From assembly GCA_009698575.1 (NCBI GenBank), contig WLPX01000001.1, positions 252,924-316,923 of the forward strand: a DNA stretch of 64,000 bases. Reading direction: 5' to 3'. Below, piece by piece: positions 10,362 to 44,427 of this stretch. The translations under genes and the position numbers were made by a program. Numbering within the stretch: position 1 is the stretch's first letter; each line of letters begins with the position of its first letter. A model generated the notes under the pieces. That model was not told the DNA's origin and did not search any database. It saw only the letters and a program-made list of their open reading frames with translations. Source of the DNA: Actinomycetota bacterium. GTDB lineage: Bacteria > Actinomycetota > Actinomycetes > S36-B12 > UBA5976.

Positions 10362-10664
10362 TTAAGCTAATTGGATATTTATATCGACAATCTTTCCCAA
10401 TTCGGCAGTTGTAGGTGTTCGCTTAGTCGCGCTAGGTACCAAAGTAACTATGGTCCAATCTCCAGCCGCAGCGAAAAATCTAAATTCACCAAGCTTTGAA
10501 ACTGGCATCTCTGCCACAAACTCGTCATTGCGATCCAATAACCTCACGTAACCAAGGTTTGCGGGCGCTGCGCCAACAGTAACTACGCCTTGAATAACTG
10601 CCTGAGTTGCAATATCAATGTTGTCCAGAGATACGCCACCGACTACAGCGCCGCAAGCACTCAT
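10362..10664 (-). CDS. DUF1416 (SseC-like) protein
   Basis: 100-aa beta-sandwich-type protein. The block YVRLLDRNDEFVAEM followed by GEFRFFAAAGDWT is characteristic of SseC/DUF1416, a conserved actinobacterial companion of thiosulfate sulfurtransferase (Rv0814c next to CysA2 in M. tuberculosis). Biochemical role unknown; a contribution to sulfur transfer is assumed from linkage. ATG overlaps the sulfurtransferase stop by 4 nt (10661-10664). Confidence 0.9.
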   Translation of the reverse strand: MSACGAVVGGVSLDNIDIATQAVIQGVVTVGAAPANLGYVRLLDRNDEFVAEMPVSKLGEFRFFAAAGDWTIVTLVPSATKRTPTTAELGKIVDINIQLA

Positions 10665-11506
10665 GCTGAACCTGGCTCGTCTCCGACAGCTACTGGAACA
10701 CCAACAAGTGATCCGTATTCTGTCCAGGAACCGTCATAGTTACGAACGTTCTTAACGCCCAACAGCTCGTGCAATACGAACCAGGAATGTGCTGAACGCT
10801 CACCAATCCGGCAATAAGCAACGGTGTCTTTCTTTAAGTCCACGCCTGCGCCTTCGTAGAGAGATGTCAATTCATCAATTGACTTAAATGAGCCATCTTC
10901 GTTAGCAGCTTTACTCCATGGAATGTTTGCAGCAGTTGGAATGTGTCCACCGATGCGAGCGGCTTCTTGTGGCAAATGTGCTGGAGCTAGTAAGCGACCG
11001 GCGTACTCATCCGGGCTACGCACATCAACTAGATTCTGCACTCCAATTGCCTTAAGTACATCTTCACGGAAAGCGCGAATCGATAGGTCCTGATCCTTGG
11101 CAACGTATTTAGTTAATGCACGAGTTGAAGCGGCGCTAACTAGTTCACGACCATCTAGTTCCCACTTTTTGCGACCACCATCAAGTAAGCGAACATCGCC
11201 ATGACCATAGAGCTTGAAGTACCAGTACGCATAAGCAGCAAACCAATTGTTGTTCCCGCCGTAAAGCACCACAGTGTCGTCATTTGAAACACCCTTAGCA
11301 CTCAACAAAGCTTCAAACTGTTCCTTGTTTACAAAATCGCGACGGACTGGATCCTGCAGATCTGTTTTCCAGTTAAGTGCAATTGCGTTCTTGATGTGAT
11401 TGCCGGCATACGCTTCGGTGTCTTCATCAACTTCGATGAAAACTACTTTTGCATCATCAAGATGCGCCAGCGCCCATTCTGCGTCAACTAGTGCTTGGTT
11501 ACTCAT
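10661..11506 (-). CDS. Thiosulfate/mercaptopyruvate sulfurtransferase, two rhodanese domains
   Basis: 281 aa: an inactive N-terminal rhodanese domain (about 1-130) and an active C-terminal one (about 150-275), with catalytic Cys in YCRIGERS. That CRxGxR loop fits thiosulfate:cyanide-type sulfurtransferases, which move sulfane sulfur to thiol acceptors. Homologue of mycobacterial CysA2/SseA. Good SD (AAGGAG) before ATG 11506. Part of the leader-DUF4395-sulfurtransferase-DUF1416 operon, so probably controlled by cysteine supply through the leader at 12029-12109. Confidence 0.9.
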   Translation of the reverse strand: MSNQALVDAEWALAHLDDAKVVFIEVDEDTEAYAGNHIKNAIALNWKTDLQDPVRRDFVNKEQFEALLSAKGVSNDDTVVLYGGNNNWFAAYAYWYFKLYGHGDVRLLDGGRKKWELDGRELVSAASTRALTKYVAKDQDLSIRAFREDVLKAIGVQNLVDVRSPDEYAGRLLAPAHLPQEAARIGGHIPTAANIPWSKAANEDGSFKSIDELTSLYEGAGVDLKKDTVAYCRIGERSAHSWFVLHELLGVKNVRNYDGSWTEYGSLVGVPVAVGDEPGSA

Positions 11507-11537: not shown

Positions 11538-11963
11538 TTATGAAAAAATTCGCTTGCCGATTAAGTACATTTCGCACCCAAGGCAAAAGTTAAATGCTGC
11601 GTTCAAAAAAGCAGCACCAAGTGCAAAGCCGACCGCAATTGTTGCGACCAAGTCAGCACCCGCGAGCAGTGCCACTAAGCCAACAATTGCAAAAAGGAAA
11701 CCTACTAGTTGGGCAAAACGTGGTGGCTCGACTGCTTCTAATTCAGTTGGCTTGCCAAGTTTTGGCGCTACTAGCTTGCGATACAAAATTCCGTATGGTT
11801 GAGCATGTAATCCAACAAATGCACCAAGTGCAAATACCACTGTTTGAATTCCTAACAACACTGTGGCAATGCTCGATGGGATCGTAAGCAATATAACTGC
11901 CAAAACAATAGTTGTAATAGCCGCTCCAAAGCGGGGGCCTCTTGGATCAATTTGCTTGCTCAT
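11538..11963 (-). CDS. DUF4395 membrane protein
   Basis: 141-aa integral membrane protein with about four helices (approx. residues 13-35, 37-52, 80-100, 103-122). It ends with FCLGCEMYLIGKRI, whose CxxC at a membrane face is the DUF4395 hallmark. Members occur beside thioredoxin and sulfurtransferase genes and may carry thiol redox equivalents or sulfur across the membrane, which is not proven. AAAAGGAA precedes ATG. First structural gene of the sulfur operon, about 65 bp after the leader peptide. Confidence 0.88.
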   Translation of the reverse strand: MSKQIDPRGPRFGAAITTIVLAVILLTIPSSIATVLLGIQTVVFALGAFVGLHAQPYGILYRKLVAPKLGKPTELEAVEPPRFAQLVGFLFAIVGLVALLAGADLVATIAVGFALGAAFLNAAFNFCLGCEMYLIGKRIFS

Positions 11964-12028
11964 CTAAATTCCTTTTGCAGTTTCGGTTGGCTTTGCTGAA
12001 TTAATGCAGGCCACTCGGGTCTGCGGAA

Positions 12029-12109
12029 TTAGCTGCACATACACATGTCAGAACCCAGCCGGCCGTAATCAACGACCCGACGCTTGGTAAGTACTTTTCC
12101 GCCTGACAT
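12029..12109 (-). CDS. Cys-rich leader peptide (26 aa), Ms5788A-like, candidate cysteine attenuator
   Basis: A 26-codon frame ahead of the DUF4395-sulfurtransferase operon. Residues 7-14 read LTKRRVVD, and the peptide ends MCMCS, with Cys codons at 23 and 25 just before TAA. In mycobacteria, Cys-rich leaders of the Ms5788A type precede the same operon and carry a similar LTKRRAVD core before terminal cysteines; ribosome stalling at the Cys codons relieves attenuation. Motif, operon and position all agree. AAGG lies 8 nt before the ATG, so translation may be leadered rather than leaderless. Confidence 0.75.
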   Translation of the reverse strand: MSGGKVLTKRRVVDYGRLGSDMCMCS

Positions 12110-12111
12110 GT
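12043..12111 (-). promoter_or_regulatory. Inverted repeat joining the leader start and its Cys codons (attenuator arm)
   Basis: On the transcribed strand ACATGTCAG at the leader ATG (12111-12103) is exactly complementary to CTGACATGT (12051-12043), which includes codons 21-23. The two 9-nt arms lie 51 nt apart. The pairing would hide the leader start and the Cys codons together and would be disrupted by a stalled ribosome. Direct observation; the regulatory reading is inference. Confidence 0.5.
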
Positions 12112-12145
12112 CCTCAACCTTAGGCCAGTTAAGCCACGGACAAAA

Positions 12146-12189
12146 CTTGAGATTTCTCTACTGCAAAACCTTCGCAGTAGTTTCTCAAG
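12146..12189. promoter_or_regulatory. Long imperfect hairpin between the divergent sulfur operon and thioredoxin gene
   Basis: CTTGAGA/TCTCAAG (7 bp) encloses CTACTGC/GCAGTAG (7 bp) with a 5/2 internal loop and a 9-nt apex. There is no U-tract, so it is not a classic terminator. It sits 57 bp before the thioredoxin start and 37 bp before the leader start. It could be a regulator site or an RNA element in the thioredoxin 5' UTR. Confidence 0.45.
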
Positions 12190-12246
12190 TTGGCGAATCT
12201 GGCCATTTCACCTAAGTTCAGAAGGGTTGATTTATAAGGAGTGGCA

Positions 12247-12675
12247 ATGAGTACCGGCGGTTACGTGTTACTTGCGGTACTTGCGCTCTCTGCCGGCTTT
12301 GGGATTTACCGGAAACTAAGTGATGGCAAACTTCGCGGCGAGATTGTCCCGCCACTTCAAGGCCTTACTGAGCACCTTCACTTGGATCATGATCATCCGC
12401 CGCAGGTAACATTTCTGCAGTTTTCATCCGAGTTCTGCCAACCCTGCCGTGTTACAACGCGAGTCCTGGATGAAGTAACAAATAGCTTTCCGGCAATCTG
12501 CCACATCGAACTCGATGTAGTTGAGCATTTAGATTTAGTTAAGACTTATGGAATTACTCGCACGCCGACTACTTTAATTATCGATAAAGCAGGCACTGTG
12601 CATTTTCGTGCAGTAGGCGTGCCAAAGGCTGCTGATTTAACTAATGCAGTGTCTGCATTAACAGAAGTCCCCTAA
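12247..12675 (+). CDS. Membrane-anchored thioredoxin-like protein
   Basis: 142 aa from ATG 12247 (AAGGAG six bases upstream; an in-frame GTG at 12241 is alternative). One N-terminal membrane helix (about residues 5-20), then a thioredoxin fold with active-site CQPC in EFCQPCRVTT and the cis-Pro loop TRTPTTLII. It probably reduces or transfers thiols at the membrane. In mycobacteria a thioredoxin (ThiX) also sits at this locus, linking it to the divergent sulfurtransferase operon. Confidence 0.86.
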   Translation: MSTGGYVLLAVLALSAGFGIYRKLSDGKLRGEIVPPLQGLTEHLHLDHDHPPQVTFLQFSSEFCQPCRVTTRVLDEVTNSFPAICHIELDVVEHLDLVKTYGITRTPTTLIIDKAGTVHFRAVGVPKAADLTNAVSALTEVP

Positions 12676-42732: not shown

Positions 42733-43017
42733 TTAACCACCAGCAACTGCAGGAACTATCGAAACAGTCACGCCAGCTGGAGTTGGTGTTGAAAGGCCAT
42801 CTAGGAATCGAACGTCATCATCATTGACATATACATTCACAAAGCGTCGTAATTCTCCAGTGTCGGAGATTACTCGCTGCAAAATTCCAGGTGCCATAGC
42901 TTCCAGGGCATCAAGTACACCCTGCAGAGTTTCTGGGTTTGGTTCTAGTTCAACTGTTGATTGATCGGACACATATGCCCGCAAAATTGTTGGGACTCGG
43001 ACAGTTACGCTCATCAT
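42733..43017 (-). CDS. MoaD/ThiS-family sulfur-carrier protein
   Basis: 94-aa ubiquitin-like protein ending in Gly-Gly (PAVAGG), the residue pair that is adenylated and thiocarboxylated. VNVYVNDDDVRFLDGLST and VSIVPAVAGG are typical of MoaD/CysO relatives. Coupled to thrC by ATGA overlap, so the carrier is translated with a PLP enzyme, not with molybdopterin genes. A role like CysO (sulfur donor to a PLP synthase) is inference. Confidence 0.85.
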   Translation of the reverse strand: MMSVTVRVPTILRAYVSDQSTVELEPNPETLQGVLDALEAMAPGILQRVISDTGELRRFVNVYVNDDDVRFLDGLSTPTPAGVTVSIVPAVAGG

Positions 43018-44282
43018 GCACCTTCGATAACTCTTGCAACGGATTCAACATTTGGAGTAATGGTTGCAGTGAAACCATTACCAGTGGATACCGCGTCAAG
43101 GGTTTTAAGCCCTTCACCAGTATTTACAATCACAGTTTCTGCAGTTGGATCTAGCAGCCCTTGTGCCAATAACTTTCGTGTCACGGCAACGGTTACGCCG
43201 CCAGATGTCTCGCCAAATATTCCTTCGCACTCAGCCAACAATCGGATGCCTTCCACAACTTCTTCGTCAGTGACATCGCCAACTGCGCCATTTGTGCGAC
43301 GCACTGCATCTAGTGCATACGGACCATCAGCTGGGTTTCCGATTGCAAGTGATTTGGCAATGGTGTCGGGTTTAACTGGACGCACTACTTCGCTGCCATC
43401 AGCCCAAGCAGTTGATACTGGATTGCATCCAGTTGCTTGTGCGCCGAATACGCGCCATTGTCGATCCGGAACTAAACCAAGTTCTACAAATTCGCGCCAG
43501 CCTTTGTCGACTTTAGTTAACAGCGCGCCGGAAGCCACTGGAATCACAACTTGGTCAGGAAGTCTCCAGCCGAGTTGCTCGGCAATTTCGTAACCAACCG
43601 TTTTAGAACCTTCGGCATAGTAAGGCCGCAAGTTAACGTTTACGAATCCCCAGTTAGCAGAAACTTCTTCGCCAATTAATTCCCCGCAAAGGCGATTCAC
43701 GTCATCGTAGTTTCCTTCGATGCCAATCACGTGACCGTTGTAAGCAGCGGTTGCTTGAATTTTGTTTTGCTCCAAATTCGATGGAACTAAGACAACTGAT
43801 TTTTGTCCAGCACGTGCGGCAGCAGCTGCAACCGCGTGTGCCAAGTTCCCAGTTGAAGCACATGCCAAAGTGTCAAAGCCAAGTTGAATGCCGGCGCTTT
43901 GTGCCACAGCAACAACGCGATCTTTGAATGAGTGCGTTGGGTTTCCGCTGTCGTCTTTAACCCAAAGCGTGCCGGTGATGCCAAGTGCTTTTGCCAAATT
44001 GTCAGCGCGATGAAGGCGAGTCATGCCAGGCGCTAAGTTACGAGACTCGGCGATGTTCGCTGGAACTGGCAAAAGCGCCGCATAACGCCACAAAGAGAAC
44101 GGACCCGATTGGATCTGTTCTCTTGTTACGGTGCCGAAGTCATATGCCACTTCAAGTGGGCCAAAACATTCCCAACAGGAATAGTCGGCGCCAAGTTTTG
44201 CATGCGCGCCACAAGCACGACAGACCAAGTGAGTTGCCGCACCAAATGGTGCAGTATCGATTTTTTCTAGTGTTACAGACAT
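43014..44282 (-). CDS. thrC: Threonine synthase (PLP), zinc-ribbon type, riboswitch-controlled
   Basis: 422 aa. N-terminal zinc ribbon (CRACG at about 21-25 and CWEC at about 36-39), then a fold type II PLP domain: PLP-Lys in THSFKDR, ASTGNLAHAVAA phosphate loop, and GGVTVAVT. Converts O-phosphohomoserine to threonine. Preceded by a SAM riboswitch and followed by an overlapping MoaD-like gene, neither expected of a plain threonine gene. Alternative use in sulfur assimilation is possible (see findings). The SD AAAGG lies just after the riboswitch P1 helix. Confidence 0.85.
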   Translation of the reverse strand: MSVTLEKIDTAPFGAATHLVCRACGAHAKLGADYSCWECFGPLEVAYDFGTVTREQIQSGPFSLWRYAALLPVPANIAESRNLAPGMTRLHRADNLAKALGITGTLWVKDDSGNPTHSFKDRVVAVAQSAGIQLGFDTLACASTGNLAHAVAAAAARAGQKSVVLVPSNLEQNKIQATAAYNGHVIGIEGNYDDVNRLCGELIGEEVSANWGFVNVNLRPYYAEGSKTVGYEIAEQLGWRLPDQVVIPVASGALLTKVDKGWREFVELGLVPDRQWRVFGAQATGCNPVSTAWADGSEVVRPVKPDTIAKSLAIGNPADGPYALDAVRRTNGAVGDVTDEEVVEGIRLLAECEGIFGETSGGVTVAVTRKLLAQGLLDPTAETVIVNTGEGLKTLDAVSTGNGFTATITPNVESVARVIEGA

Positions 44283-44298
44283 TGAGCTGGAAGCCTTT

Positions 44299-44427
44299 CG
44301 TCATCTCTACTAAAAACAGCAAGCTGTCTTTAGTCGGAATTGGCACCGGGTCGCAAGGCCTTAACGGTTCTGCGGTGGTTGCCGGGGCTTCAACGGGCCG
44401 TTCCCTCTGCCCCTCTGGATGAGGTGT
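44299..44427 (-). promoter_or_regulatory. SAM riboswitch (S-box; SAM-I or SAM-IV) upstream of thrC
   Basis: On the minus strand the core is nearly consensus: CAGAGGGG CAGAGGGAACGGCCC, TTGAAGCCCCGGCAACC, GGTGCCAATTCC. Helix P1 pairs TCATC (near 44422-44418) with GATGA (near 44305-44301). P4 is a ten-pair stem (CTAAAGACAG / CTGTTTTTAG) around CTTG. thrC's SD follows P1 directly, so SAM binding may block translation. Class I versus IV needs a covariance search. Confidence 0.9.

Follow-up and report, generated by a model that had tools for sequence, protein, structure and literature searches.

How a leader peptide might report on cysteine supply is the question raised by a short open reading frame ahead of a sulfur operon in the window, the 64,000-nt stretch of DNA analysed here. 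The host is a freshwater actinobacterium with a 1.7-Mb genome, probably of the order Nanopelagicales, and the leader, judged from its sequence, looks like a candidate cysteine gauge for that operon. Actinobacterial cysteine leaders have so far been taken to count Cys codons, and the leaderless polycysteine ORFs of the Ms5788A type in mycobacteria were reportedly the subject of Canestrari et al. 2020 (doi 10.1111/mmi.14498). Cysteine leaders of actinobacterial cys genes were predicted in 2005 (Seliverstov, PMC1262725), and genes of the PF14340 family (DUF4395) have been tied to sulfur metabolism through their regulation (Lyubetsky 2014, doi 10.1016/j.compbiolchem.2014.01.001, as cited in PMC4833913). 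As far as the 2020 study is represented by papers that cite it (PMC13236596) or summarise it (PMC9031893), the mycobacterial polycysteine leaderless ORFs are cysteine-responsive attenuators, and the summary has such leaders of M. smegmatis controlling downstream translation via cysteine-dependent elongation. This kind of leader is already known; what selection maintains in the present one is addressed below.

The leader gene and its operon

The 26-codon leader ORF is a real gene. It stands, as the first-pass annotation had claimed, before a DUF4395, sulfurtransferase and DUF1416 operon, the order on the minus strand being leader, DUF4395, rhodanese and DUF1416, with the operon directly 3' of the leader after a 65-nt spacer (Table 1). 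The rhodanese gene also matches NF008557 (2.4e-31), below the cut-off of that family. A thioredoxin-like gene (12241-12675, plus strand) is divergent and has its upstream region in common with the leader operon.

Table 1. Features of the leader region and operon, in window coordinates
Feature	Position	Strand	Basis or remark
-10 element TAAGGT	12117..12122	-	ends 7 nt 5' of leader ATG
Leader ORF MSGGKVLTKRRVVDYGRLGSDMCMCS with stop codon, 26 codons	12029..12109	-	conserved at all usable loci of the genus
P1 5' arm AUGUCAGG, start codon included	12102..12109	-	fold; arms covary across leaders
Inner hairpin part over LTKRRVVD-YGRLG, loop at Asp codon	12053..12088	-	stability against synonymous permutations
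P1 3' arm UCUGACAU, immediately 5' of UGU	12045..12052	-	fold; covariation
Cys codon UGU at D+9, proposed stall codon	12041..12043	-	
Second Cys codon UGC, D+11	12035..12037	-	His in sister genome L076, not conserved
Anti-Shine-Dalgarno segment AAUUCC-GCAG, overlaps leader stop codon	12021..12030	-	folds onto DUF4395 Shine-Dalgarno, z -2.09
CUGC-AAAA-GGAAUU, carries DUF4395 Shine-Dalgarno AAGGAA	11967..11980	-	opening costs
DUF4395 gene	11538..11963	-	PF14340, E 4.5e-42
Rhodanese / 3-mercaptopyruvate sulfurtransferase-like gene	10661..11506	-	PF00581 in two stretches
DUF1416 gene	10362..10664	-	PF07210, E 8.6e-28

All 20 loci of the genus with usable upstream sequence (20/20) have the leader before DUF4395. 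A further genus in the family carries DUF4395, and with the motif used no leader was found upstream of it (G027, G033, G038-G041; L022, L030, L042, L043, L046, L017). The window's genome contains one leader copy; other genera of the same order have second copies of the leader family before other genes, which suggests a wider leader regulon in the order. The RRxVD-x8-Cys(UGU) layout occurs in L108-L122 before a putative cysteine synthase, sulfite/nitrite reductase, flavin reductase, carbonic anhydrase and sulfhydrylase, names that were given by reading the sequences without a family search.

Because the -10 element ends 7 nt before the leader ATG, the transcript in the window should start at the A of that ATG. 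The first-pass annotation's reading depended on a transcript that does not begin downstream of the leader, and the spacing places the predicted start at the leader ATG itself. Across the family, 91 of 102 leaders have a TAnnnT whose 3' end lies 6 or 7 nt upstream of the start codon, and the hexamer hardly ever occurs at another distance; our choice of start codons favoured TAnnnT at 4-9 nt, yet offsets 4, 5 and 9 gave zero cases. Such spacing marks a leaderless transcript; the messages of nearly all 102 leaders checked are predicted to be leaderless.

Conserved residues and the cysteine codon

We collected 103 distinct leaders and numbered their positions from the Asp of RRxVD, D(0). R(-4) and D(0) occur in 103/103, counts fixed by the search pattern to which both residues belonged and not independent of it, and R(-3) occurs in 102/103. 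The codons of R(-4) were left unconstrained; all six Arg codons are used there across the leaders, and therefore the amino acid is what selection keeps. The pattern demanded a Cys anywhere in the last 14 positions and left D+9 itself free; the Cys lies at D+9 in 100 of the 103 leaders and at D+10 in the remaining 3, while the stop lies at D+13 in 71/91. The conservation of LTKRRxVD, of the peptide frame and of the C-terminal Cys in relatives, on which the first-pass annotation's reading depended, is borne out.

The window leader has two Cys codons and that of the sister genome L076 has one; the leaders collected usually have one to three, and only exceptional ones have long Cys runs. The first-pass annotation was right in counting two Cys codons, which it took to be fewer than in mycobacteria, but this is the usual range of the family and not a reduced state.

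At D+9 the codon itself is biased, being TGT in 96/100 leaders, whereas Cys at D+2 of the same peptides is TGC in 54/58 (Fisher p 2e-32). Among leaders less than 70% alike the split is 35 TGT vs 2 TGC at D+9 and 3 TGT vs 11 TGC at D+2. TGT makes up 22-32% of the background in long ORFs of the same loci (193/856 Cys codons at GC of at least 60%; 32/99 below 60%). The long ORFs of the window use the two Cys codons about equally (62 vs 68), so UGU in the window alone means little. In L093, L094 and L095 the D+9 codon is UGC and a UGU stands at D+7 within a CCC run; here UGU seems to have shifted place rather than to have been lost. RNA structure was considered as the cause of the bias and set aside: changing UGU to UGC moves predicted folds both ways, with no clear mean effect, and for that reason we favour decoding over structure as its source. 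Slow wobble decoding by tRNA-Cys would be the simplest idea.

The fixed residues raise the question of whether the nascent chain, rather than the codon, might be the main trigger, with RRxVD-x8-Cys stalling the ribosome through a small molecule or Cys-tRNA and codon starvation playing a minor part. Under free synonymous change, R(-4), R(-3) and D(0) are kept together with the 9-residue spacing to the Cys, although two of these residues come from the search pattern, and in many of the leaders the C-terminal Cys is the only one. TnaC and other arrest leaders are likewise short and conserve residues that lie a set number of positions from the stall codon, and the spacing is like that of TnaC, which senses free tryptophan and acts through Rho. 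Sequence kinship with TnaC is absent, however, and the likeness is one of working, not of membership. The RRxVD segment is moreover partly under selection for RNA structure, and the mycobacterial relatives with Cys runs work, in the summary given in PMC9031893, through elongation speed and cysteine supply. We therefore hold arrest as the main trigger to be possible but doubtful, and prefer a reading in which the ribosome waits at UGU because cysteinyl-tRNA is scarce, with the nascent chain possibly assisting.

A helix from the start codon to the cysteine codons

The first-pass annotation described a perfect 9-nt pairing between the start codon region and the Cys codons. The complement is present (ACATGTCAG, 12111..12103, with CTGACATGT), but the RNA helix, P1, has 8 pairs, 7 Watson-Crick and one G-U, because the first two bases of the 9-nt arm precede the predicted transcript start. 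The predicted fold of the leader is a long hairpin that loops at the Asp codon, with P1 as the outer helix. The inner part, over RRxVD, beats within-column synonymous permutations in stability in two GC groups (z -6.4 and -4.3); its own arm-swap test is weak.

The arm-swap test compares the duplex energy of a leader's own arms with that of arms exchanged among leaders. For P1 the own arms pair more strongly in the genus (z -5.2), in leaders of at least 60% GC (z -5.4) and in the remaining leaders under 60% (z -4.1), and 0/500 swaps in these three groups reached the observed energy. Among 51 leaders less than 70% identical, z was -7.8 and 0/2000 swaps reached the observed energy, kinship being handled through such identity thresholds and not through a tree. 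A neighbouring control segment gave no comparable signal in the 51-leader test, and the last seven leader codons, tested for pairing directly to the gene start, showed no covariation with it (z -1.0). The letters of P1 vary among relatives, for example GGCGGA with UCUGCC and AUGCAG with CUGCAU. RNAalifold found no consensus structure on the ungapped leader alignment, apparently because the registers of the helix shift between lineages. An earlier reading of the pairing as a chance, non-conserved match, drawn from exact-match counts in the genus, was overturned by these swap tests, which allow different letters.

P1 is thus a conserved, covarying helix and a feature of the whole leader family. 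The compensatory change that the first-pass annotation had named as a check is found, linking the start region with the stretch that immediately precedes the Cys codons, while its view that the pairing is new to the window fails, and mycobacterium-like leaders with Cys runs are predicted to fold likewise.

With the 3' arm of P1 present, opening the 5' 16 nt of the window's message costs 7.8 kcal/mol, vs 3.0 kcal/mol without it; the genus means for the first 16 nt are 6.97 and 3.62 kcal/mol. In the computed folds the leader hairpin would probably shut the start codon at the 5' end in the absence of a stalled ribosome. At 5 of the first 6 nt of high-GC leaders, pairing to the P1 arm stays under 0.45, and closing of the AUG itself is therefore not uniform.

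A hairpin of this kind could also pause RNA polymerase or protect the 5' end of the RNA without gating initiation, and standing ahead of the stop it does resemble the 1:2 pause hairpin of classical attenuators. The covarying arm, however, is start-proximal and coincides with the footprint of a ribosome at UGU, which inclines us to think a pausing or protecting role improbable, though worth keeping in mind, and to retain gating of initiation as the preferred reading of P1.

The Shine-Dalgarno of DUF4395

Downstream of the segment that the first-pass annotation had described lies a region in which the DUF4395 Shine-Dalgarno is predicted to be sequestered. All fold energies here are computed. Opening the Shine-Dalgarno in the window costs 6.6 kcal/mol with no ribosome on the leader; when the A site holds UGU the cost is 3.4 kcal/mol, and when it holds UGC, 2.1 kcal/mol. 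A stall at UGU would thus keep part of the sequestration in the window, and the non-conserved second Cys frees more. Over 12 separate lineages of the genus the drop from the free to the UGU state is 2.33 kcal/mol, vs 0.68 (sd 0.29) in spacer shuffles; shuffles matched the drop in 0/120 cases over the lineages and in 1/120 for the window alone. An earlier form of the ribosome-position fold test pointed in the same direction. The effect is uneven, L036 showing none and L018 none at UGU. On these models, sequestration of the Shine-Dalgarno is the element most likely to act on expression.

Directly 3' of the leader stop (window 12007-12024) a hairpin GCAG[U/C]C with GGCUGC occurs in 13/13 members of one subclade. 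We considered it as the switch, and it would compete with the Shine-Dalgarno pairing, but its pairs hardly vary, so that it is only a possible switch.

Leader translation might instead govern how Rho reaches the RNA that separates leader and operon, and not access to the Shine-Dalgarno. A role of Rho at mycobacterial cys leaders was put forward in 2005 (PMC1262725), and no intrinsic terminator was found in the region 11900-12260, which also sets the window leader apart from a classical transcription attenuator. On the other hand, a 65-nt spacer is short for a Rho loading site, and the position of the ribosome alters predicted Shine-Dalgarno exposure far above shuffled spacers; we consider Rho-dependent attenuation unlikely and keep translational control as the preferred reading. 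Least credible is a functionless chance match of the start-to-Cys pairing in the window: about 5% of synonymous recodings of the window sequence equal or beat it and its exact arm letters are common only to the window and L076, yet covariation of the arms is seen within the genus and, in a separate test, among high-GC leaders, with not one swap reaching the observed energy.

Discussion

We consider it likely, with real room for doubt, that the leader is a cysteine-responsive translational attenuator of the sulfur operon. The transcript would begin at the leader AUG, as the -10 position indicates. When cysteinyl-tRNA is scarce, the ribosome would wait at the UGU of D+9, possibly aided from within the exit tunnel by the conserved RRxVD part of the nascent chain. 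Folding predicts that the footprint of the stalled ribosome would keep the end of the leader from the structure that hides the Shine-Dalgarno, so that the operon could be translated. A ribosome with UGU in its A site covers about the stretch between D+4 and the first base of the stop codon, and hence the P1 3' arm would be covered while it waits; with this arm masked, the 5' AUG should be open for more ribosomes. When cysteine is ample, the ribosome would finish and depart, P1 would close the 5' end, few new ribosomes would load and the Shine-Dalgarno would be hidden. Both the response to cysteine and the gating of initiation by P1 are what we infer from these features.

More tentatively, and on present evidence improbable as a whole, many actinobacteria may share a three-layer sensor made of the arrest motif RRxVD-x8-Cys, one fixed wobble-decoded UGU and a covarying hairpin that shuts the leaderless start as long as no stalled ribosome keeps it open; one such ribosome would then hold the message open for the next, and the switch would have memory.

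The first-pass annotation matched the leader to the Ms5788A type. Kinship and operon support this, as NF042933 (leader_Ms5788A) aligns to the window leader over positions 4-26 of 27 with E 1.7e-4, but the score of 21.2 bits does not reach the curated cut-off of 45 and the Cys run is absent. Alignment A2, used in the genome searches for leaders, contains the window peptide, which makes its E-value there circular; the NCBIfam match is independent. The window leader is a distant relative, by sequence, of the mycobacterial Ms5788A cysteine leader. Both are short ORFs, leaderless by prediction in the window, before a DUF4395/sulfur operon, with an LTKRRxVD core, a C-terminal Cys and no intrinsic terminator, and the mycobacterium-like leaders in our set have the same fold and -10 spacing; unlike the Ms5788A leaders, the window type has one to three Cys and not a run. 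The actinobacterial leaders of 2005 and 2014 share the predicted dependence on cysteine, the 2014 case concerning PF14340 genes, but in the parts of those accounts available to us they are described as runs of Cys codons without a conserved hairpin. We found no mention of the fixed UGU, the D+9 spacing or the covarying start-to-Cys helix in the cysteine-leader literature, in which the main mycobacterial study is represented by papers citing it; this is not proof of novelty.

On the present data, selection maintains a single codon in a single position (UGU at D+9), along with two Arg, one Asp and a helix to the start codon, and the same constraints hold in leaders with a single C-terminal Cys and in those with Cys runs. 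If our reading is true, leaderless mRNAs, which are common in mycobacteria and their relatives, could use the position of a ribosome that already sits on the message to switch initiation at their 5' end. This idea is directly testable in Mycobacterium smegmatis.

No Rfam family matches the leader region. Elsewhere in the window, a SAM riboswitch (RF00162, 67.8 bits; 44298-44425, minus strand) lies just 5' of an ORF (43014..44282, minus strand) that reads as threonine synthase; in Streptomyces lividans a SAM box stands ahead of threonine biosynthesis genes, according to PMC8079986.
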